Of a stretch of DNA of 42,348 nt, positions 4,849 through 17,463 are shown piece by piece (within the stretch, counting starts at the first letter, position 1; every line of letters begins with the position of its first letter). Location: NCBI GenBank assembly GCA_014384675.1, contig JACNFK010000030.1, positions 1 to 42,348 of the forward strand, given 5' to 3'. The notes under the pieces were generated by a model, which worked only from the letters and a program-made list of their open reading frames with translations, did no database searches and was not told the DNA's origin. The translations under genes were made by a program, and so were the position numbers. The stretch comes from Candidatus Thiopontia autotrophica. GTDB lineage: Bacteria > Pseudomonadota > Gammaproteobacteria > GCF-002020875.

Positions 4849-5079
4849 ATGAGTTATACGCAGGAGCTGGTCGACGAACTTAATCTTCTAATGCAATTTG
4901 ACCTGCACTCTACACAAGAGGGAATAAAGATCCACAATAGTGCCGGGGTAGGCATGGTTAAAGCGGCAGAGCGACTTCACAAAAAAGGGATAACCTCACA
5001 GAAGGATGGCGGCTACCTGACGGACTTTGGTATTGAGTGTGCCGAGAGAGCACAGACACTACATGACATGCTCTCCTAG
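4849..5079 (+). CDS. TIGR02647 family protein
   Basis: This 76-residue protein is soluble and mostly helical (MSYTQELVDELNLLMQFDL at the start, HKKGITSQKDGGYLTDFG near the end). The pattern matches the small TIGR02647 family found mainly in gammaproteobacteria and annotated only as conserved or putative DNA-binding. The ATG is preceded by AAGGAGATAACAGGG. The TAG stop shares the palindrome CTAG with the stop codon of the convergent glycosyltransferase gene, so the genes end on top of each other. Its function is unknown. Confidence 0.85.
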   Translation: MSYTQELVDELNLLMQFDLHSTQEGIKIHNSAGVGMVKAAERLHKKGITSQKDGGYLTDFGIECAERAQTLHDMLS

Positions 5080-5720
5080 GAGCACAACCCACAAGGGTTA
5101 CTAACTCCCCACTGGGGTGGTAGCAGCGCAAGATCCTCTTCGATATCGATATCGGACAGTGGAGAGAGCTCAGCCCACTCCAGCCCAGACCTGTCGAGAA
5201 CCATGCGGGTCGCCTCCATCACCTGGTCACTGCCCCACTCTATCCCCCTGAACAGGGTTGGCAGGTGGTCCAGAAAAGCTCGCCTGAGCGCAATCAACAC
5301 ATAACCACCATCCAGCGCAGGAATCACCACCGCCTCTGAGCCCTGCAGTGCGGCATGGACCGCCTGAAACTGCTTGGCATCCAGCTGCGGGCAATCTGTA
5401 CCCACCAGGATAGCCATCTCACTCTCTTTCAGCGTCTGCTCAAATCCATGCAACATCCGCTCACCAATATCCGCCCCCTGTTGTCTGCATATCCCCAGGC
5501 CATGGTCCTGCTGCAGCTGCTGAAAGAGTGGGTGATATGAATCTGGGGCGCAATAGAGGGTAACCGGCCCCACCCCAGATAGCCGCGCCTCTTCGACTAC
5601 ATGGTTGATCATACGCTGCTGTAGTGTGGCTGCCCCCTGCTCACCCAGTGCCGGAATCAGACGGGTTTTTGCGTATCCTGGAACAGGAGCCTTGGCGAAG
5701 ATAAGCAGTGGAGAGCTCAT
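5076..5720 (-). CDS. TIGR04282 family glycosyltransferase (arsenosugar cluster)
   Basis: This 214-residue protein has the nucleotide-sugar-transferase-like fold of the DUF2064/TIGR04282 family. Visible motifs are IFAKAPVPGYAKTRL at the N terminus (residues 6-20), the nucleotide loop LVGTDCPQL, and VIPALDGGYVLIAL. TIGR04282 proteins are known from clusters with ArsM and ArsS and are thought to transfer a sugar to a methylated arsenical. The start at 5720 is chosen because it overlaps the stop of the upstream gene as ATGA and begins the family N terminus; the frame extends to 5999 but that part only shadows the upstream gene. It is the last gene of the arsM operon. Confidence 0.9.
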   Translation of the reverse strand: MSSPLLIFAKAPVPGYAKTRLIPALGEQGAATLQQRMINHVVEEARLSGVGPVTLYCAPDSYHPLFQQLQQDHGLGICRQQGADIGERMLHGFEQTLKESEMAILVGTDCPQLDAKQFQAVHAALQGSEAVVIPALDGGYVLIALRRAFLDHLPTLFRGIEWGSDQVMEATRMVLDRSGLEWAELSPLSDIDIEEDLALLPPQWGVSNPCGLCS

Positions 5721-6397
5721 CGATACATTCTGGCTAGTCGCTGTGGTGAGACTCCCGCCCAGTAGCCAAAACGGAGACCCCACATCAGTAGGATCGTTTT
5801 TATCACCCCTCTCTCCTCCCAGCGTCGGCTGGAGGTCACCACCCTCTGCCGAATGCAGAGTGGGCGTCCCCTCTTTCTCAGCTCTCTGCTGATGGCAACA
5901 TCCTCCATTAACGGAATCTCCGGAAACCCTCCAAGCTCCAGAAACAGGGAGCGCGAAAGAAATATCCCCTGATCCCCGGTAGCGATCCCGCTCCAGCATG
6001 AGCGCAGATTCATCATCATCTCCACTAATCTCAGTAGCATCCTATCTCCGCTCAGGCGCACATTAAAGCGCCCCCATAACTGTTTTTGGAGTGCCTGCAG
6101 TATGGTCTGATCACTCTCCTCCGGTACCTGCGTGTCTGCATGAAGAAACCAGAGCACCTCCGCTCTGGCCAGTTCCGCCCCCCTGTTCATCTGCAGTGCG
6201 CGCCCGACAGAATCCGATTTAACCCAGCGGTCGATATAGGGCAGTGAGAGCTCTCTGGTCTGGTCACTGCTGCCACCATCCACGACAATAATCTCAACTC
6301 CCCGCTCCCGCATCGGTTGCAGTGGCCTGAGTGTTTTCTCAATTACTGTAGCCTCATTCACTACCGGAATGATGATTGAGATTGAAGGTAAGCCCAA
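5717..6397 (-). CDS. TIGR04283 family glycosyltransferase (arsenosugar cluster)
   Basis: This family 2 glycosyltransferase of 226 residues carries the nucleotide-sugar binding pattern ISIIIPVVNEA, VDGGSSDQT and FLHADTQVP. A DQGIFLSR and PLMEDVAIS pair corresponds to the GT-A acceptor and catalytic region. No ATG fits the domain start; a TTG at 6397 preceded by AAGGGTAGGA gives MGLPSISIIIP and the usual family length, four bases after arsS ends. The frame continues upstream to 6535 only as a shadow of arsS. TIGR04283 enzymes occur with arsM/arsS in arsenosugar operons. The exact acceptor is unknown. Translation is coupled to the downstream gene by an ATGA overlap. Confidence 0.87.
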   Translation of the reverse strand: MGLPSISIIIPVVNEATVIEKTLRPLQPMRERGVEIIVVDGGSSDQTRELSLPYIDRWVKSDSVGRALQMNRGAELARAEVLWFLHADTQVPEESDQTILQALQKQLWGRFNVRLSGDRMLLRLVEMMMNLRSCWSGIATGDQGIFLSRSLFLELGGFPEIPLMEDVAISRELRKRGRPLCIRQRVVTSSRRWEERGVIKTILLMWGLRFGYWAGVSPQRLARMYR

Positions 6398-6401
6398 TAT
6401 C

Positions 6402-7370
6402 CTACCCTTGGCTAAGCGCCCCGCCACAACTGGATCCCTGACCAGCAGTACAGCCGTAGCAGTGCCCCGCAACCCGTATGGAGAGCTCTGAGAGATCATC
6501 ATCCAGCAGATCCTCAATATGCATAACCTGCTCATCCCCGCTGCGCAGTGGAAGTTTCAGCATCTGGTTGAAGTCACAATCATAGATCACCCCCTGCCAG
6601 TCAACACTGACGAGTGAACGGCACATCACTGTAGATAGATTCTCATCTCGATGTGCGCTCTGCAGCAGCTCCATATAACCATCAAACTCTCCCTTAGAGA
6701 GGAGTCGGCTGCCAAAACGGTGGATAGGCAGATTGGTGATAGTTAGCAGCTGGTTGAAGATAATCCCATAATTATCATGCAGATGTTTTTTGTAATCCGG
6801 CTCCAGCGCACCCTGTGAAGGTGGAAGGTGTGCCCCCTGCGGGTTGTATACAAGATTCAGGATCTTGCCACCGGCATCGTCACCATACCCCAGTCTATTC
6901 AACCGCTGGAGCCCCCTGATATTTAGATTGAATGTACCCTTGCCTCTCTGTGCATCTACGTTTTCCTCTAGATAACAAGGCATTGAGGCAACTATCTCAA
7001 CTTGATTGTCTGATAAAAACTGAGCCAGTTCATGCTGCTCAGGCTCCTCCAGTATAGTGAGATTACAGCGATCAATCACCCGTATGCCGAGACTGGTTGC
7101 CGCCATAACCAGCTTACGGAACCAGGGATTCATCTCAGGGGCACCGCCTGTGAGGTCAAGAACCTTAACCCCCCCACTCTCCAGCACCTGAATTACCCTG
7201 TCGACTGTATCCCCATCCATCATCTCGGTACGGTTGGGACCGGCATTGACATGGCAGTGGGTACAGCTAAGGTTACAGCGGTAACCCAGGTTAACTTGCA
7301 GGGTCTCTAGTGGACTGCGCTGAATTGGAGGGAAGGGGATCTCCTTCAGATGGGGATAACTATCGAGCAT
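6402..7370 (-). CDS. arsS: arsenosugar biosynthesis radical SAM protein ArsS
   Basis: This 322-residue radical S-adenosylmethionine enzyme has the 4Fe-4S motif CNLSCTHC (Cys32, 36, 39), the LDLTGGAPEMNP SAM-binding segment, and a C-terminal cysteine cluster CYGCTAGQGSSCGG that would hold an auxiliary cluster (DUF3641-type tail). ArsS is proposed to attach the 5'-deoxyadenosyl group of SAM to a methylated arsenical, giving the dimethylarsinoyl-nucleoside precursor of arsenosugars. It starts six bases after arsM ends and is followed after four bases by the TIGR04283 gene. Length and motifs are typical. Confidence 0.93.
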   Translation of the reverse strand: MLDSYPHLKEIPFPPIQRSPLETLQVNLGYRCNLSCTHCHVNAGPNRTEMMDGDTVDRVIQVLESGGVKVLDLTGGAPEMNPWFRKLVMAATSLGIRVIDRCNLTILEEPEQHELAQFLSDNQVEIVASMPCYLEENVDAQRGKGTFNLNIRGLQRLNRLGYGDDAGGKILNLVYNPQGAHLPPSQGALEPDYKKHLHDNYGIIFNQLLTITNLPIHRFGSRLLSKGEFDGYMELLQSAHRDENLSTVMCRSLVSVDWQGVIYDCDFNQMLKLPLRSGDEQVMHIEDLLDDDLSELSIRVAGHCYGCTAGQGSSCGGALSQG

Positions 7371-7376
7371 AATCTA

Positions 7377-8429
7377 TCAGCAACAGCTTCCCTCGGAAGC
7401 ATGCTCTCCACTACCATCTTCATCAAACGGCATAGCGGTACCACAACCATTGAAGATTCCGTAGTGGGTATCCCCGCTGCCAAAAAATTCGAAGTGGTCG
7501 GCAAAGCGGCTATCACGCAGCATTCTCCAACTGTTGCCGCAGACTGGCTCCACCTTGCCCGTCTCGAAACGGTGCCCCTTATCGAGCTCAAACAGATCTG
7601 GATGGTTCTCTACCGTCCCCTTGTAGATAACAGCCTGACCGTAATCCTCACAGCTCCCCTCCAGCTCCGGAATCTTGAAGAGTCGGTAGGTTGCGGAGTA
7701 GAAACGGTGTGTCCCCAGCATCTCCTCAATCTTCGGATTGTCGATAGTTAGTGGGCGATCCTCCACCAGACGCGGATCTGCAAAGCCATTGTTTTTGGCC
7801 AGGGTCAGAAAATCATTCCAGTAAAGGGCCCCACTGAGACACTCCCCATATAGCAGAGGATCCTTTACCAGCTCCTCCGGCACCCTGCGCTCCGAATAGA
7901 CATCAGAAAAGTAGAGCTCACCACCTGGCTTCAGCACCCGCCACGCCTCACGCAACACGGCATCCTTGTCAGGGGAGAGGTTAATGACACAGTTGGAGAC
8001 AATAATATCGAAGCTCTCATCCTCAAGCTCGAGCTCATCCAGTCTCTCGATATACCCTTTGCGGAACTCCACGTTTGGAGTGGAGTAACAGTAGCGGTCG
8101 GCATGCCACTGAATATGGCGCTTAGCCACATCCAGTTGCTCATCAGTCATGTCGACACCCACCACATATCCATCCTCACCGGTAAGGCGCGCCAACAGGT
8201 AACAGTCTCGCCCCGAGCCACTACCGAGATCAAGAATCCTGGCCCCCTCCAGCTGTTGTGGTGCCACCAGACCACAGCCGTAATACTTGGCTGATACCTC
8301 ATCGTGAATATCAGCCATTGCCGCTTTTAGCCATGGTGGCATCGATGCATCTGTACAACAGGCATCAGTCTGTAGATCACTGCTGGTAACCAGAATCTGA
8401 CCGTAATATTTCTTTACCTCATCATGCAT
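7377..8429 (-). CDS. arsM: arsenite methyltransferase ArsM
   Basis: This 350-residue SAM-dependent methyltransferase methylates As(III). The SAM loop [13 protein letters not shown] is at residues 65-77 and acidic VGVDMTD follows. Four cysteines at 24, 52, 147 and 197 show spacings close to the As(III)-binding cysteines of the well-studied algal ArsM (44, 72, 174, 224): 28 and 50 residues for the first and last pairs match exactly. YYGCG around Cys52 is a family signature. A C-terminal domain ends in SCC. It is first in the operon arsM-arsS-two glycosyltransferases. AAGGG lies eleven bases upstream of the ATG. No arsenic regulator gene adjoins it. Confidence 0.94.
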
Positions 8430-10632: not shown

Positions 10633-10866
10633 TCATACCTTTCCACTCCAGATCCGCACCAAACGGATCAGCAACAGGGTAATCGGGGTGCCGTGAAGGA
10701 GGAGGTCAAAGATATCCAGCGGTTTCACAAGCACTCCGTCCGCCAGCATCTTTAGTTTTTCTACCAGATGTGGTTCAGGGTGAGGAGGGAAAATTGCAGG
10801 CATAACCGCCAGCATCAATGCAATCAACACTAGATGACCTAGTGGTATCTTATCAATCCATTTCAT
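10633..10866 (-). CDS. small integral membrane protein at the end of the multihaem operon
   Basis: This 77-residue protein has two hydrophobic segments (LVLIALMLAVMPAIF at about 12-26 and a C-terminal FDLLLHGTPITLLLIRL at about 53-69), separated by a short polar loop with PHPEPHLVEKLKML. Similar small proteins of about 75 residues occur in gammaproteobacteria, sometimes loosely labelled as transporter-related. I cannot name a function. It is 27 bases after the pentahaem cytochrome gene and immediately before a bidirectional terminator, so it is likely the last cistron. Confidence 0.75.
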   Translation of the reverse strand: MKWIDKIPLGHLVLIALMLAVMPAIFPPHPEPHLVEKLKMLADGVLVKPLDIFDLLLHGTPITLLLIRLVRIWSGKV

Positions 10867-10893
10867 TTTTTATTCGATATATCAATTAGTTAT

Positions 10894-11625
10894 TTATCTA
10901 TATTCCAGTATTTTAGAGCGTATGCGGATGAAGTCACCATCTAGTGCCGGCTGCCCGTGCCACCACTGAAAATCTGGGGAGTGGTGAACAACTCCAAGGC
11001 GGAGATTGTGCCTGTGTCTCTTCACCGAATCTAGTAACTCTTTCTGCTCCTGTTGAGGGAGATCTCCCCCCTTCCACTTGAGAAGCCATTTCGCCTCCAG
11101 CACCTTCATCTCACCCACCTCCTCCATCGCCTCTCCACTGGAGGCCAGGGTCTTCAGGTAACGGGTAGAGTGGCACTTGCCACATATCTTGGGATCACCA
11201 TCAGCCTTGGGTTCCATAGCATGGTCTCCATCCGATAGATGGCAGTAGGCGCATCCCGGGGTACGGACTGAGACCGTGGCAAGCGGTTTGGTGAGATCCC
11301 AGCTGGACTCCTCCAGGGTGAGGATAACGCCATGTTTGGAGGTCTCGTAACTTCTCTGCTCTACACCAGTGTGACACTGGGTACAGCTCTGGTTAGCTCT
11401 GGAGCGAGCCAGGGAATCGCTATGGCTACTCCCATGACAGTCGCTACACCCTACACTGCCCGAGCCATGTCTGCCCTGACGATGAGTATTCACTATCTTT
11501 GCGGAGACCTTATGGTGGCACTCGACGCACTCCTGTTCGCCATATACCTTGTCCAGCAGGAACTCCTCCGACACGGCCTGGGTGGAAGTCCATACCATCC
11601 ACAGAGCAAACCAGAGATATCGCAT
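10894..11625 (-). CDS. periplasmic pentahaem cytochrome c, HAO-like relative
   Basis: This 243-residue exported protein has a signal peptide (residues 1-19) and five CxxCH haem sites at Cys33, 60, 81, 125 and 148. After the fifth site comes a helical, haem-free tail containing HNLRLGVVHHSPDFQWWHG. The motifs SKHGVIL, WDLTKPL and CAYCHLSDGDHAM match segments in the octahaem protein encoded just upstream (SAHGKIY, WDWNQPL, CAYCHMEEGIHSV). I therefore read it as a shortened paralogue that lacks three haems and has kept the tail. It probably passes electrons to or from its octahaem neighbour. Its ATG overlaps the upstream stop by one base (TGATG). Confidence 0.87.
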   Translation of the reverse strand: MRYLWFALWMVWTSTQAVSEEFLLDKVYGEQECVECHHKVSAKIVNTHRQGRHGSGSVGCSDCHGSSHSDSLARSRANQSCTQCHTGVEQRSYETSKHGVILTLEESSWDLTKPLATVSVRTPGCAYCHLSDGDHAMEPKADGDPKICGKCHSTRYLKTLASSGEAMEEVGEMKVLEAKWLLKWKGGDLPQQEQKELLDSVKRHRHNLRLGVVHHSPDFQWWHGQPALDGDFIRIRSKILEYR

Positions 11626-13274
11626 CAGTTATTCTCCCTGTTGTAATCGGTATACCTGCCTTCAAGCCAGAGACCATCATCTTGCGGATGTGCAGCACTC
11701 TCCTCGCTGGCAGACGAGCGTAACTGTTCCGCCCTCTTCTCGATACCATTCAGATCACGCTCCATGGCCTTGTGTGCCTCCTCCACACCCGCCGGATCGC
11801 CATGAGCAGCGGCCTTGTATCCATGCAGATTATCGAAGTACCACATCTCAAAATAGTCACGTTCGATGCCCGAGACATTGTAGAAGGCGGAGGCCTGCCC
11901 CTCAAAAAAACCTATATGTGCCCGTGGCCAGAGCTGGTCCATCTTGTCGAGCGGGTATGGCGGACGCTCACCCGGAGCAGGGGTAATCTTGTCATCGGAA
12001 CGGAGATCTTTCAGCACCCCTTCCGCCCTGTAGAGCATATTCCACGCCTCCTTGCGCTCCTCATCCATCTCTCTCAGCCACTGCCGCGACTCCTCCTCTT
12101 GGTGGCAATCCATGCATAGATTGACCCAGCGCTCTCGCAGAACCTTGTTGCCAGAGGTATTGGGATTAATTTCACGGATACCGAATTTCCAGATCGATTT
12201 ATGGGCAACCGAATGAATACCCTCTTCCATATGGCAGTAAGCACAGGTTGGAGCCTTGTAGTTTCCTTTTTTGAGTGGCTGATTCCAGTCCCAGTCACCA
12301 CCCTCCTCTCTGTAGATCTTGCCATGGGCAGAGGCAAAGTAGGTCTTGTCATCTGGATGAGGGGGGCCTGAGTGGCAGGTAATGCAGGACTCGCTGCGCC
12401 GCGCCTCTGCCGCACTGAAACGGTGACGGGTGTGACAGGAGTCACACTTGGTGGCGACTGAGTGACACTGCAGACAGGAGAGTACCTCCGGTTTTGGCTT
12501 GTCTACAAAGTGTTTGGCATCAACTGCTCGCTCCATGGCCAGGGCGTGGCTGGGGAATCCATATTTTTTCTCATCCTCAACCTGGGTCAGCTGCGTGGTG
12601 TGACAGCCACCACAGGTTGTTGGGTTGGGGAGATGGAGGTTGCCATGATCATCCCCATGACATGCTGGACACCTCACAACCTCCTCCCCATTGGTGGGAG
12701 CAGAGTGTCTACTCTCTCTCCAGTCACGCACAATTCCCGGGGTTATGCTCTGATGACACTGGATGCACTGATCCCCACTGAAAACGGCTTTGATCTTGCT
12801 GTTTGCATTATAGAAGTTTTCCGGATCCCAATACTGCTGCATTGGATCGGGCTCCCACTCATTTGAGTAGAGGCCAATCCCGGTTCCACTACGGCTGCTC
12901 TCCAGCATGGTAAACCCGGAGGGGATGGCAATGGCCACCATGACCACGGCAACGATCACATAACGTGGCACCCCCCTCCAGCGCAGCAACCCGATCAGAA
13001 TCAGTGCCGCAACAAAGGAGATGGCAAACCACGCCCAAGGACCATCAACACCACCTGATTGGGCACCTACTCGAACTGCCTCCTCTACTCCCCCCATCAG
13101 CACCAGATGGTCATCAGTATGGTGGGCCAGCAGAGCCGTTGGGGAAATGAGCAGTGGCAATGATCCAAGTAGGTAGCTACCATTTACCAGTCGTGTCGCA
13201 ACTCTTGGCACTCTCTCAATTACAGGTCGCTCAAGCACACTTCTGTGCCGCTCGTCTGTGGTGCAACTACTCAT
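11625..13274 (-). CDS. membrane-anchored octahaem cytochrome c of the hydroxylamine oxidoreductase (HAO) type
   Basis: This 549-residue protein has eight CxxCH sites at Cys170, 202, 221, 267, 277, 297, 344 and 387. The string CDSCHTRHRFSAAEARRSES followed by CITCH and SAHG is characteristic of HAO-type octahaem cytochromes. Hydrophobic segments at about 33-50, 82-98 and 104-120 precede the haem domain, so the protein is anchored rather than soluble. HAO relatives oxidise hydroxylamine or hydrazine, or reduce nitrite. Which one cannot be told here: whether one of Tyr465, 474 or 479 corresponds to the Tyr that cross-links to the catalytic haem of oxidative HAO needs an alignment. The start overlaps the upstream stop as ATGA, inside a tight operon. 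Confidence 0.88.
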   Translation of the reverse strand: MSSCTTDERHRSVLERPVIERVPRVATRLVNGSYLLGSLPLLISPTALLAHHTDDHLVLMGGVEEAVRVGAQSGGVDGPWAWFAISFVAALILIGLLRWRGVPRYVIVAVVMVAIAIPSGFTMLESSRSGTGIGLYSNEWEPDPMQQYWDPENFYNANSKIKAVFSGDQCIQCHQSITPGIVRDWRESRHSAPTNGEEVVRCPACHGDDHGNLHLPNPTTCGGCHTTQLTQVEDEKKYGFPSHALAMERAVDAKHFVDKPKPEVLSCLQCHSVATKCDSCHTRHRFSAAEARRSESCITCHSGPPHPDDKTYFASAHGKIYREEGGDWDWNQPLKKGNYKAPTCAYCHMEEGIHSVAHKSIWKFGIREINPNTSGNKVLRERWVNLCMDCHQEEESRQWLREMDEERKEAWNMLYRAEGVLKDLRSDDKITPAPGERPPYPLDKMDQLWPRAHIGFFEGQASAFYNVSGIERDYFEMWYFDNLHGYKAAAHGDPAGVEEAHKAMERDLNGIEKRAEQLRSSASEESAAHPQDDGLWLEGRYTDYNRENN

Positions 13275-15613
13275 AACCGCTCCATAATCTCTGCAGCCGC
13301 CCTACGCCCATCTGCAATGGCTGTCACCACCAGATCGGGGCCACGACTGAGGTCTCCGCCCGTAAACACCTTGCTGTTCTCTCTCTGCAGGGTCTCCAGC
13401 CATGGGGCCTTCTCCTTGACCTGACCAAAGGCAAGAATAATGATGTCACACTCCAGCAGCTCCTCAAGTCCGGCAATACCGACACCGGGGTCACCACAAA
13501 GACCATCATCCCTGGTGGAGAGGCTCATCAGTTTTACCCCACTGACCCTGCCATCCTCCCCAACAATCTCGGTCTGCGTCTTGAGGTAGAGAAAGTTCAC
13601 CCCCTCCTGACTGGCCGCCAAAGCCTCCTTGGGGGCGGCACGAATCTCCCCCTCTGCCTTGCGACAGACTACCGTTACCTCAGCTGCCCGCTGACGCACG
13701 GCGCTACGAGCACAATCCATAGCAGTGTCGCCCCCGCCAAGAACCACAACTCGCCGCCCCTCTATCTGCCGGTTATTGGGATTGTCGGAATTCGGATTGG
13801 CATGGCGCAGGTAACTCAGAGAATCAAATACCCCCTCCAGATCATCTCCAGAAATCGGTACCGAGCGTGGTTTCTGTGCCCCGGTTCCGAGGAAGAGAGC
13901 ATCTGCACTCTCTGCCTGAGCCCTGATCTGCTCAGTCGAACAGTGCTCCCCAAGATGGAAGACAACCCCCATCTGCTCCAGCATCTTGCGGCGATGAGTC
14001 AGGATTGACTTCTCCAGCTTGAATGAGGGGACACCGCTCAACAGCAGCCCGCCAATCTCCGACTCCTGATCATAGATCGATACTCCACAACCAGACGCTG
14101 CCAACTGCTCCGCACAGGCCAGGCCAGCCGGACCAGCACCTACAACCGCAACACTCTTGTTACCGAATTTAGTGATCCGGCTTACAGATGGCTTGATGGA
14201 TATGGGGCTCTCCAGCGCCATATCAGATACTGCCCTCTCCAGTGCACCAATGGCCACCGCCCCTTCGGGCTCTGTTGCTAGGGTACATCCTCCCTCACAG
14301 AGGCGATGCTGCGGACAGAGACGGCCACAGATCTCCGGAAATGGATTGGTCTGGTGAATCACTGCCGCCGCCTCCTGAATCCTGCCGGCGGCAGCTAATC
14401 CAAGCCACTCGGGAATTTTGTTGGAGAGTGGACAGCCGTTCCGACACCCCGGAACACCACAATTTAGACAGCGCCCCGCCTGCTCCATAACCCATGAGAT
14501 CTTCTCCTCTGCCTCTTGAGTCGCACCAATCTCATCCCAGTTACCAATACGCTCTGCTGCCGGCAGCAACTCTGGAAGTCTGCGTGGCAGAGGTGGCTGC
14601 GCCGTACGCTTGAGCAGATAATCTGCATCCTGTCTCAGACCGCTACGCAGCAGATTTCTCACATCCCTGAACTCCAGTGCATTGGTTGGGCAGGAGACCA
14701 CACAGCGGCCACACCCCATGCAGTCCTCCAGATCGGTGACCCTCCCCTCCGCCTTGCCCTCCTCCCAGACCCGGATACCCATGTCACAGACCTGCTCACA
14801 ACGCCGGCAGTCATTGCACTGCTCCTGCTCCATCTCTATGCCGTAGAAACCGGCATGGTTAAGTAGTCCGAAGGTTGCGCCGTAGGGGCAGAGGTAACGG
14901 CAGTAGAATCGATTACCCACTGCAGGCATTAGAAAGAAGGTTCCAAAATAGGTAAGTCCAACCATTGCATAGAACATGCCGACAAAGGTTACGGTCCAGG
15001 CAGATGGTGGAAACAGGGTGGCAACCAGTACTCCCATGTAGATTACAAAGAAGAACCACTTGCTGTGACGCAAGCGATGCGCCCACTTGCCACGAATAGT
15101 GCGGTCTCTAAAGGCATAGCCAACAGTCTCACGGACACCTACGCAGGGGCAGCCCCAGCCACAGACCACACGACGACCAAAGAGAAATACCAACCCCAAA
15201 ACCAGGAAGAAGGTTATGGTCCCGGGCACGTGGATACTGGGAAAGATGGGCTGACTCCAGAGATAACCTACATAGGGTTCGAATCTGGGAATTAGCCACG
15301 GGATCAACCACCAGAAAATGGTGACCACAGCCACCAGCACGATCAGCCGTTTTCTAGTGTAGCTATTCTTCTCGGCCCAGATGCGCCACACCCCAAAACC
15401 GAGAATGATGGCGTATTCAGTATAGCGATTTAACCAGATTGGGCTCTCAAACCAGTAAAACCATGATTCATTTAGCCACCCCATCAAGGCCAGGGTGAAG
15501 GCCGCCATTGAGAGCCATTGAAAAAACCTGGGGTAACGGCCAGGCAGGGAGTCCTGTTCAGATACAGGACGTTCTACTGGCTGGTATATGATGGGAAATC
15601 TGTTACTTTCCAT
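13271..15613 (-). CDS. NapH/NosR-like polyferredoxin fused to a GltD-like FAD/NAD(P) oxidoreductase
   Basis: This is one uninterrupted frame of 780 residues. The N-terminal third has about six hydrophobic helices with the NapH/NosR-type motifs CGWGCPC (about 151) and CRYLCP (about 238), then two 4Fe-4S ferredoxin motifs, CNDCRRCEQVCD (about 266) and CMGCGRCVVSCP (about 298). From about residue 370 it is a GltD-type module: cysteine-rich segment CLNCGVPGCRNGCP and CGRLCPQHRLCEGGC, FAD loop GAGPAGLACAEQ, pyridine nucleotide loop LGGGDTAMDCARS, and TGGDLSRGPDLVVTAI at the end. This suggests electron flow between NAD(P)H and a quinone or periplasmic cytochromes (inference). The ATG at 15613 has AGGA upstream; a GTG at 15619 is possible. 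It overlaps its neighbours on both sides. Confidence 0.9.
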   Translation of the reverse strand: MESNRFPIIYQPVERPVSEQDSLPGRYPRFFQWLSMAAFTLALMGWLNESWFYWFESPIWLNRYTEYAIILGFGVWRIWAEKNSYTRKRLIVLVAVVTIFWWLIPWLIPRFEPYVGYLWSQPIFPSIHVPGTITFFLVLGLVFLFGRRVVCGWGCPCVGVRETVGYAFRDRTIRGKWAHRLRHSKWFFFVIYMGVLVATLFPPSAWTVTFVGMFYAMVGLTYFGTFFLMPAVGNRFYCRYLCPYGATFGLLNHAGFYGIEMEQEQCNDCRRCEQVCDMGIRVWEEGKAEGRVTDLEDCMGCGRCVVSCPTNALEFRDVRNLLRSGLRQDADYLLKRTAQPPLPRRLPELLPAAERIGNWDEIGATQEAEEKISWVMEQAGRCLNCGVPGCRNGCPLSNKIPEWLGLAAAGRIQEAAAVIHQTNPFPEICGRLCPQHRLCEGGCTLATEPEGAVAIGALERAVSDMALESPISIKPSVSRITKFGNKSVAVVGAGPAGLACAEQLAASGCGVSIYDQESEIGGLLLSGVPSFKLEKSILTHRRKMLEQMGVVFHLGEHCSTEQIRAQAESADALFLGTGAQKPRSVPISGDDLEGVFDSLSYLRHANPNSDNPNNRQIEGRRVVVLGGGDTAMDCARSAVRQRAAEVTVVCRKAEGEIRAAPKEALAASQEGVNFLYLKTQTEIVGEDGRVSGVKLMSLSTRDDGLCGDPGVGIAGLEELLECDIIILAFGQVKEKAPWLETLQRENSKVFTGGDLSRGPDLVVTAIADGRRAAAEIMERL

Positions 15614-16253
15614 CACCACTATCCTGTCGCATACGTGTCACCACGCGCGGAATGAATGCAACCAGCGCAATCAATGCCAGTGCAATAACCCCATTCTGGA
15701 TCATCGATTCACTCCCCTTCAGCGCCTCTCCTCCAGCATACCCCAGATAGGTGTAGGCAAAACATGCAGGAAGCATAAAGATCCAGCTGGCAACCACGTA
15801 GTGGAGAAACGGGATTTTGGTCAACCCCAATACATAGTTGAGCAGATTGAATGGGAAAAGCGGAACCAGCCTGGTGAAGGCGACAAAACGCCATCCCTCC
15901 TCTTCCACTCCTTCGAGGATTTTTTTCATCTTGCCTGCCGCCTTCTGCTCCACCCAGTCGGAGGCGACATAACGGGATACCAGAAAAGCAAGGGTGGCAC
16001 CGATAGTGGCACCGGTAAGGTTGATCAGTGCACCAAAGATGGGGCCAAAGAGTGCGCCGCCAGCCAGAGTCAAGACTGTGCCCGGCACAAAGAGAACGGT
16101 GGCAACCGCATAGAGTACTATAAAAAATATTGGTGCCCAGAGCCCTGCCTGTTCAATCCAGAGTTCAATCTGCTGCTGGTTGATATCGCCACGCCACTGC
16201 CATGCCATGATCAGTAGTGCGACAAGAGCAATTATTAGCAGAATTTTTTTCAT
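15603..16253 (-). CDS. TVP38/TMEM64 (DedA-superfamily) membrane protein
   Basis: This 216-residue inner-membrane protein has the family pattern VPGTVLTLAGGALFGPIFG (about residues 56-74) and RLVPLFPFNLLNYVLGLT (about 126-143), with re-entrant-type hydrophobic segments and a basic tail. TVP38 proteins are relatives of DedA and of eukaryotic lipid scramblases; bacterial substrates are mostly unknown. It starts 10 bases after the hydroxylase-family gene and its stop overlaps the polyferredoxin gene by 11 bases, so it belongs to the same transcript. Confidence 0.9.
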   Translation of the reverse strand: MKKILLIIALVALLIMAWQWRGDINQQQIELWIEQAGLWAPIFFIVLYAVATVLFVPGTVLTLAGGALFGPIFGALINLTGATIGATLAFLVSRYVASDWVEQKAAGKMKKILEGVEEEGWRFVAFTRLVPLFPFNLLNYVLGLTKIPFLHYVVASWIFMLPACFAYTYLGYAGGEALKGSESMIQNGVIALALIALVAFIPRVVTRMRQDSGDGK

Positions 16254-16263
16254 CTGTTATCCA

Positions 16264-17088
16264 TTACTTTTTTAATGATTCATAAAAAGGCTGGACAAGC
16301 ATCCGATCCAGCCGGTTATCACCAAAGTGGCGAAACTGCGGTAGCCCAATCTCCATCCCCTGATGCCCCTCTTCCGGTTGGGCAATGTAGGTTCCCAGCA
16401 GACGATCCCACCACGGAAGATTAAAACCGAAATTGCTATCCGTCTCTCTACGAATCACAGAGTGGTGAACCCGGTGCATATCGGGGGTAACCACAATCCA
16501 GCGCAACCAGCTATCAATGGATAGCGGCAACCTAACATTGCCATGGTTAAACATTGCGGTGGCGTTCAGCAGCACCTCAAACAGAATAACCGCTACCACA
16601 GGTGCTCCAATTAGCAGGATCACCCCAAACTTGATAACCATCGAGAGGATAATCTCGATTGGATGAAACCGTGCCCCGGTGGTGACATCGTAATCGAGAT
16701 CGGCATGGTGCATACGATGCAACCTCCATAGTAGTGGAACTGCATGAAACAGCCTATGCTGTAGGTATATTGCAAAATCCAGCACCAGAAGCGCCATCAC
16801 AATCTTGGTAACCACACCCAGATCAACCTGATTCATGAGCCCCCAACCCTCATCGGAGACGACCATTGCAAACCCTGCAGCGGCAACAGGAAAGAGCAGG
16901 CGCACCAACACGGTATTGATTGCTACTATCCCCAGATTGCTGCCCCATCGCACCCCACGCCCCATAGAGAGCCTGCGCCGAGGTGCAGCTAGCTCCCATA
17001 GAGCCATAACTGCAAAAATCCCAAGGAAGGCGGAGAGTCTTATAACGCTCTCATTCGCCTGCACCTGAAGAGAAAATATCTCAACCAT
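16264..17088 (-). CDS. sterol desaturase/fatty acid hydroxylase family protein
   Basis: This 274-residue multi-span protein has the di-iron histidine boxes HRLFH, HRMHHADLDYD and MHRVHHS, spaced as in the fatty acid hydroxylase superfamily (about residues 112, 123 and 206). Family members use O2 and a di-iron centre to hydroxylate or desaturate lipids; the substrate here is unknown. It is first in the multihaem operon, with AAGGAGGCTGGG before the ATG. A palindrome in the promoter, facing the divergent ArsR-type gene, suggests redox- or metal-responsive control (inference). Confidence 0.9.
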   Translation of the reverse strand: MVEIFSLQVQANESVIRLSAFLGIFAVMALWELAAPRRRLSMGRGVRWGSNLGIVAINTVLVRLLFPVAAAGFAMVVSDEGWGLMNQVDLGVVTKIVMALLVLDFAIYLQHRLFHAVPLLWRLHRMHHADLDYDVTTGARFHPIEIILSMVIKFGVILLIGAPVVAVILFEVLLNATAMFNHGNVRLPLSIDSWLRWIVVTPDMHRVHHSVIRRETDSNFGFNLPWWDRLLGTYIAQPEEGHQGMEIGLPQFRHFGDNRLDRMLVQPFYESLKK

Positions 17089-17184: not shown

Positions 17185-17463
17185 ATGGAACAGGTCAAAA
17201 AGCTCTCATCACTTTTCAAGGTACTATCCGAACCCAATCGGTTGCGTATTCTCACCTCATTGGGGCTTGAGTGCAGGCCGGTATCGGCCGTGATTGCAGA
17301 TACCGGATTGAGCCAGACCAACGTCTCCTTTCACCTCAGAAAGCTGAGAGAGATGAATCTGGTGCGTGGTGAAAAGAATGGAAGCTTCGTCTTCTACTGT
17401 ATATCTGACCATGAACTGCTTGATCTGCTGAACCGTTTTCGGGACTGGAGCACAAAGGATTAG
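17185..17463 (+). CDS. ArsR/SmtB family transcriptional regulator
   Basis: This 92-residue winged-helix regulator has an N-terminal helix, LSEPNRLRILTSL, then the recognition helix segment SQTNVSFHLRKLREMNLV and wing GEKNGSFVFYCI. Its only cysteines are in LECRPVS (about residue 31) and FYCIS (about residue 73). This is not the classical ELCVCD arsenic motif, so the ligand is not predicted. A TGCTCA-CATA-TGAGCA dyad 30 bases upstream suggests autoregulation and control of the divergent multihaem operon. The stop overlaps the convergent outer membrane gene in TTAG. Confidence 0.88.
   Translation: MEQVKKLSSLFKVLSEPNRLRILTSLGLECRPVSAVIADTGLSQTNVSFHLRKLREMNLVRGEKNGSFVFYCISDHELLDLLNRFRDWSTKD

Follow-up and report, generated by a model that had tools for sequence, protein, structure and literature searches.

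An octahaem cytochrome of the hydroxylamine oxidoreductase family with an altered active site, encoded beside a one-frame NapH–GltD fusion

What chemistry is served by an octahaem cytochrome of the hydroxylamine oxidoreductase (HAO) family whose gene adjoins a fusion of a membrane ferredoxin and a flavoprotein? The question is raised by a 42,348-nucleotide stretch of DNA from Candidatus Thiopontia autotrophica (contig JACNFK010000030.1; the whole stretch is referred to here as the window), which is one contig of a 1.58-Mb genome that is 98.6% complete. The initial annotation, made from the letters of the window alone, grouped six genes into an operon and proposed that it moves electrons between NAD(P)H or quinone and periplasmic nitrogen chemistry. 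In open-access papers we found no report linking an HAO-type octahaem cytochrome with a NapH–GltD fusion, and the locus apparently represents a widespread, undescribed variant of the HAO family with a one-piece NapH–GltD protein as its putative electron donor.

The octahaem cytochrome has an altered HAO-type active site

The octahaem gene (11625..13274, minus strand) encodes a 549-residue protein with eight CXXCH motifs that is predicted to be of the periplasmic type and anchored in the membrane. A profile built from six members matches Kuenenia HAO (KsHAO; 2e-84), hydrazine dehydrogenase (HDH; 3e-75), and Nitrosomonas europaea HAO (NeHAO; 3e-59) in the PDB. The ten best Foldseek matches to an AlphaFold model (mean predicted local distance difference test score, pLDDT, of 62) are all HAO or HDH, though this model derives from a shallow alignment without haems and is too weak for active-site geometry. 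The eight CXXCH motifs and the matches in sequence and fold thus place the protein inside the HAO family, as originally suggested. It scores 186 bits against the hydrazine dehydrogenase model NF052343, far under the cut-off of 900.

We scanned one genome per species for octahaem relatives and kept the best 80 of 243, hereafter the named loci. On a tree, the 81 octahaem members fall together on a branch separate from the eight reference octahaems (96/93 support), the reference branches being long. In the alignment with NeHAO, the CXXCH spanning C277–H281 (12432..12446, minus strand) falls on CDNCH, at the position of the catalytic haem; this CXXCH and the active-site histidine are invariant in the family. 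All eight references carry an Asp-His pair in the active site. In all 81 members the histidine is kept and the aspartate is replaced by proline (Pro305-His306 in the window; 12357..12362, minus strand).

A second change affects the site of the haem cross-link. In KsHAO, HDH (Tyr462), and two gammaproteobacterial HAOs, the eighth residue past the histidine of a YKxxAH motif is a tyrosine, the residue known to be covalently linked to the haem; the C terminus of NeHAO falls outside the aligned region and its tyrosine is not among the references for this site. None of the 81 members has a tyrosine there, nor at any position from +4 to +13, so that the tyrosine comparison called for by the initial annotation comes out negative for HAO-type oxidation. 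Together, the missing tyrosine and the Asp-to-Pro replacement rule out a bona fide HAO or HDH. Because both residues are missing family-wide, HAO-type oxidation of hydroxylamine or hydrazine, an activity that the initial annotation had kept in view, is not supported. The family is also distinct from HAOr, whose structure (PDB 6h5l) retains the aspartate and has a tryptophan at the tyrosine site, and from which it branches separately.

The first ~100 residues of the octahaem (12975..13274, minus strand) match a ~70-residue membrane protein (AHHTxDH...RWW) that is encoded by a separate gene in relatives. The two are fused in the window and in its closest relative (L057), a marine metagenome-assembled genome labelled Methylophaga sp. 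that is 90% identical. In most relatives the space between the fusion and the octahaem is occupied either by this ~70-residue protein or by a c-type protein that has one or two haems and a membrane helix.

Octahaems of other kinds were seen as well. On contig C34 of the genome that contains the window (G000), a second, distant octahaem (L056:6232-7653, minus strand) keeps the Asp-His pair and lies beside apparent NapG/NapH-type ferredoxin genes. Two gammaproteobacteria with NirS-type genes encode octahaems that carry the cross-link tyrosine motif TYTxGW and group with NeHAO (L054:7251-9077, minus strand; L055:6188-8113, plus strand). A further multihaem cluster in G088 (L053:5912-9900) consists of an octahaem, a four-haem protein, a seven-haem membrane protein, and a five-haem protein, followed by an apparent ammonium transporter.

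A NapH–GltD fusion is conserved beside the octahaem gene

The neighbouring gene (13271..15619, minus strand), which begins with GTG, encodes 782 residues in a single frame that combine a NapH-like membrane ferredoxin with a GltD-type FAD/NAD(P)H oxidoreductase. The NapH-like half (14615..15619, minus strand; Pfam Fer4_5/Fer4_7 region) has transmembrane helices, two CXXXCP motifs (C153-C157 and C240-C244), and two 4Fe-4S motifs (C268/271/274/278 and C300/303/306/310). The GltD-like half (13274..14584, minus strand) has eight cluster cysteines (384, 387, 392, 396, 431, 435, 441, and 445), an FAD Rossmann motif (GxGPAG), and an NAD(P)H Rossmann motif (GGGDxAxDCAR..R). Every one of these cysteines and motif residues is invariant in 20 aligned fusions. 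Judged by its residues, the C-terminal half is a GltD-type domain with complete predicted binding sites for two 4Fe-4S clusters, FAD, and NAD(P)H, joined to the C-terminal ferredoxin end of the NapH-like membrane protein. One peculiarity of the window's copy is the absence, near residue 745, of ~16 residues just ahead of the TGGD of the FAD domain that are present in the other 19 aligned fusions.

The GltD half matches the glutamate synthase small chain in the PDB (7.5e-119) and resembles Nfn in structure; it is the only confidently predicted half in the AlphaFold model of the entire fusion, which has a mean pLDDT of 64, the alignments being shallow. The fusion scores 82 bits against the NapH model TIGR02163 with its motifs kept, and since the cut-off is 213, its N-terminal half is classed as NapH-like only. 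Against the GltD model TIGR01318 it reaches 399.7 bits, below the curated cut-off of 483, with all cofactor residues conserved. Scores of 362 and 318 bits against the AegA and YgfT models, with cut-offs of 1003 and 1154, place it outside both families. Likeness to GltD hints that NADPH rather than NADH may be the donor.

Among 95 related genomes, five assemblies besides our own contain the full-length single-frame fusion, each time adjoining an octahaem sequence. In one of these, G039, the octahaem is frameshifted: on a single contig it is broken in three frames next to an intact fusion (L051:9522-11139), through either genuine decay or sequencing error. NapH and GltD are likewise joined in one frame beside the octahaem gene at 53 of the 80 named loci (54 with the window added); these loci and the five assemblies overlap in part, as some genomes are identical. 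The recurrence excludes an assembly artefact, and the fusion reported by the initial annotation is real, found in other assemblies, and adjacent to the same kinds of genes there. At 14 loci, all from Magnetococcales, Alphaproteobacteria, or Nitrospinota, the NapH-like protein occurs without GltD; on the octahaem tree these loci cluster as a single group (100/99 support). The remaining named loci are split, broken by contig ends, or poorly resolved. Among the hosts with names are Thiodiazotropha, tubeworm symbionts, Thiohalobacter, Thiogranum, Thiobacillus, and Sulfuritalea, and gene order is conserved in the beta- and gammaproteobacterial sulfur oxidisers.

Octahaem genes co-occur with haem-d1 proteins

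We compared 42 octahaem-positive genomes, 36 of them named positives picked for carrying the gene, with 38 octahaem-negative gammaproteobacteria. Haem-d1 proteins of the NirS/NirF/NirN type occur in 37 of the 42 and in 8 of the 38 (p = 1e-9). The association holds within dsrA-positive genomes (32/36 versus 7/13, p = 0.014) and within dsrA-negative ones (5/6 versus 1/25, p = 2e-4). It recurs in an even sample of the class comprising 275 genomes, a few of them shared with the first set, where 7 of 9 octahaem-positive genomes have a haem-d1 protein compared with 45 of the 266 others (p = 1.6e-4). G039, with its broken octahaem and intact fusion, has no haem-d1 gene, which we count in favour of the reductase reading set out in the Discussion.

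Sulfur-oxidation genes are also more frequent in octahaem-positive genomes: dsrA in 36/42 versus 13/38 and soxB in 29/42 versus 16/38. The octahaem is nonetheless not a simple marker of sulfur oxidation, as dsrA shows no association with it within nirS-positive genomes (32/37 versus 7/8). In the genome that contains the window, dsrA is found only as fragments across several contigs (C5, C13, and C14), likely through assembly breaks at repeats, and was therefore scored as present. Other nitrogen genes gave no link. NarG is not enriched (9/42 versus 8/38), NirK exceeds its cut-off in 0/42 and 3/38 genomes, and NrfA, found in none of the 80 genomes, is uninformative.

Gene layout and conserved neighbours

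All six genes of the initial annotation were recovered as described, on the minus strand between 10633 and 17088, with +10, −17, −4, −1, and +27 bases between successive frames. Pfam and NCBIfam assign FA_hydroxylase, VTT, a NapH-like ferredoxin region that shares its frame with Fer4_20/Pyr_redox_2, and, for each of the two cytochromes, Multi-haem_cyto. The first gene (16264..17088, minus strand) encodes a 274-residue membrane protein of the fatty-acid-hydroxylase family (2.6e-29), a conserved neighbour. It is followed by a 216-residue VTT/TVP38 membrane protein (15603..16253, minus strand; VTT_dom 8e-29), by the fusion, and by the octahaem. Next comes a 243-residue pentahaem relative of HAO with five CXXCH motifs (10894..11625, minus strand), which has three fewer haem sites than HAO, the catalytic one apparently among those missing. 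Pentahaem homologues were detected at 79 of the 80 named loci by tblastn and at 66 by clustering. A scan for promoters and terminators gave no clearly useful signal.

The last gene (10633..10866, minus strand), initially counted in the operon, encodes a 77-residue membrane protein. L057 is the only locus in which a homologue directly adjoins the octahaem operon; elsewhere the homologues sit at a distance from the octahaem, beyond the regulator or further downstream, so the protein is probably incidental and outside the system.

A 92-residue ArsR/SmtB-type regulator is divergently encoded upstream (17185..17463, plus strand; HTH_metalloreg, 71.9 bits). In relatives the regulator is also mostly divergent and usually an ArsR–rhodanese fusion of ~228 residues; that of the window has no rhodanese domain. 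The same holds for its VTT protein: most relatives have 320–390 residues, and those examined (L070 and L132) combine VTT with a C-terminal rhodanese domain that the window's copy lacks. Counted over the 38 octahaem loci that extend 8 kb or more upstream, the neighbours are NapH-like (37), ArsR (33), FA_hydroxylase (30), VTT (27), DsrE (19), and TauE (6).

Elsewhere in the window, an arsenosugar-type cluster (5076-8429, minus strand) encodes TIGR04282 and TIGR04283 glycosyltransferases, ArsS (TIGR04167, 449 bits), and an ArsM-like methyltransferase. Markers of such a cluster occur at 12 of the 41 octahaem loci whose downstream flank is long enough to show them.

Discussion

The altered octahaem, its conserved partner, and the link to haem-d1 proteins are consistent with a membrane-bound reductase system reaching from the cytosol to the periplasm, in which the octahaem would reduce a nitrogen oxide of the denitrification branch, with nitric oxide (NO) as the foremost candidate and nitrite or hydroxylamine next; we give this reading about an even chance of being right. 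The anatomy and conservation of the genes can be read from sequence, while the substrate, the direction and order of electron flow, and the formation of a complex are inferred. Electrons from NAD(P)H would pass to FAD and through four 4Fe-4S clusters to the NapH-like protein, which may also be fed by quinol; in the lineages without GltD, quinol is the likeliest donor. From there the electrons would reach the octahaem by way of the pentahaem and, where one is present, the mono- or dihaem c protein. The octahaem would work in the reductive direction because it is without the tyrosine cross-link of oxidative HAOs. Sulfur oxidisers that produce NO by cytochrome cd1 would use the system for detoxification or to dispose of electrons. 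The interpretation first offered for the window thus survives in part: the protein family, the fusion, and a plausible path for electrons from NAD(P)H or quinol to periplasmic haems stand, together with a strong link to nirS-type (haem-d1) genes, while HAO-type oxidation and, probably, the 77-residue protein drop out. It had overlooked the ArsR regulator, the small membrane protein fused to the octahaem, the sulfur-relay neighbours of relatives (rhodanese, DsrE, and TauE), and the variant without GltD.

Several points weigh against reduction of a nitrogen oxide. The co-occurrence statistics ignore phylogeny, and the named positives were selected rather than sampled. Four octahaem-positive genomes whose gene is intact have no haem-d1 match, and among genomes that lack nirS, dsrA is again commoner with the octahaem (4/5 versus 6/30, p = 0.017). 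Among the recurring neighbour clusters, inspected by eye with a partial profile scan, no conserved nitrogen-cycle gene was recognised; the conserved extra neighbours are the sulfur-relay genes ArsR–rhodanese, VTT–rhodanese, DsrE, and TauE. Gene order is the sole basis for supposing that the gene products interact physically. The family-wide change from Asp to Pro may, moreover, signal a new substrate.

That last change, the conserved rhodanese, DsrE, and TauE neighbours, and the excess of dsrA would all fit an HAO fold re-purposed for sulfite, polysulfide, or mixed sulfur–nitrogen species, as a reductase or in persulfide handling under rhodanese-type ArsR control, and a Thioalkalivibrio octahaem nitrite reductase also turns sulfite into sulfide (PMC8840924). 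This is rather unlikely in our estimation: nirS is associated with the octahaem in both dsrA strata, dsrA is unassociated within nirS-positive genomes, and the closest relatives with established structure and function use nitrogen compounds. Also unlikely in our view is a blend of the two chemistries, in which the Pro-His subfamily without a cross-link would reduce NO, HNO, or mixed sulfur–nitrogen species where sulfide meets denitrification, driven directly by cytosolic NAD(P)H through the one-piece NapH–GltD membrane wire and governed by an ArsR–rhodanese persulfide switch.

Electrons might also run the opposite way: the octahaem would oxidise a reduced compound such as NO or hydroxylamine, and the fusion would feed quinone or, by proton motive force, NADP+ for CO2 fixation. 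HAO-family ancestry and the GltD-type domains of bifurcating Nfn enzymes speak for this arrangement, and many hosts are autotrophic sulfur oxidisers, which need NAD(P)H. We hold it improbable, as the tyrosine and aspartate retained by characterised oxidative HAO and HDH enzymes are absent and the NapH-only lineages have no NAD(P) domain. A purely electron-carrying role, in which octahaem and pentahaem supply another periplasmic or outer-membrane reductase, would explain the universal loss of the aspartate and a pentahaem without the catalytic haem site. It appears more improbable still, for the catalytic-haem CXXCH and the active-site histidine are invariant and no conserved partner reductase gene was recognised among the recurring neighbour clusters.

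The locus would provide cytosolic NAD(P)H with a conserved path for its electrons into the periplasmic multihaem chemistry of nirS-bearing sulfur oxidisers, among them symbionts of tubeworms and lucinids. Members of the family are readily annotated as hydroxylamine oxidoreductase or hydrazine dehydrogenase, and the two residue changes offer a simple test against taking them as evidence of nitrification or anammox. The family also provides a natural active-site variant for probing the roles of the aspartate and the tyrosine.

Compared with N. europaea HAO, Kuenenia HAO, and HDH, the octahaem has the same order of eight CXXCH motifs, the same fold class, and the active-site histidine; it differs in the missing cross-link tyrosine, the proline in place of aspartate, the membrane anchor, and the NapH–GltD partner. 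HAOr (kustc0458), described without a cross-link, reduces nitrite to NO (PMC12485887). HAOr (kustc0458/kustc0457) thus shares with our family HAO membership without the tyrosine, and its reported direction is reductive, but it keeps the Asp-His pair and branches apart. To our knowledge, it has no NapH–GltD partner. An HAO-group octahaem of orange Beggiatoa, likewise a sulfur oxidiser and likened here by description rather than by sequence, is reported to reduce nitrite to ammonia in vitro (PMC6052272, citing MacGregor 2013); BOGUAY_2386 is a different octahaem, of the tetrathionate-reductase branch (PMC6449678).

The fusion shares membrane helices, CXXXCP motifs, and two 4Fe-4S motifs with NapH, the ferredoxin subunit of quinol dehydrogenase, from which it departs in carrying GltD, in its sub-cut-off score, and in having an octahaem instead of NapC/NapA as partner. 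With GltD, the Nfn large subunit, and AegA it has in common a full-length GltD domain with all cofactor residues, and AegA and YgfT are precedents for ferredoxin–GltD proteins; it misses every named model cut-off, and its other half is a membrane NapH-like protein. A reductive role for an HAO-type protein has been proposed in the reverse-HURM pathway of nitrate ammonification in Nautilia profundicola (PMC3701875). The system described here would resemble that proposal in the direction of electron flow and differs in the organism and in its putative donor, the NapH–GltD fusion.

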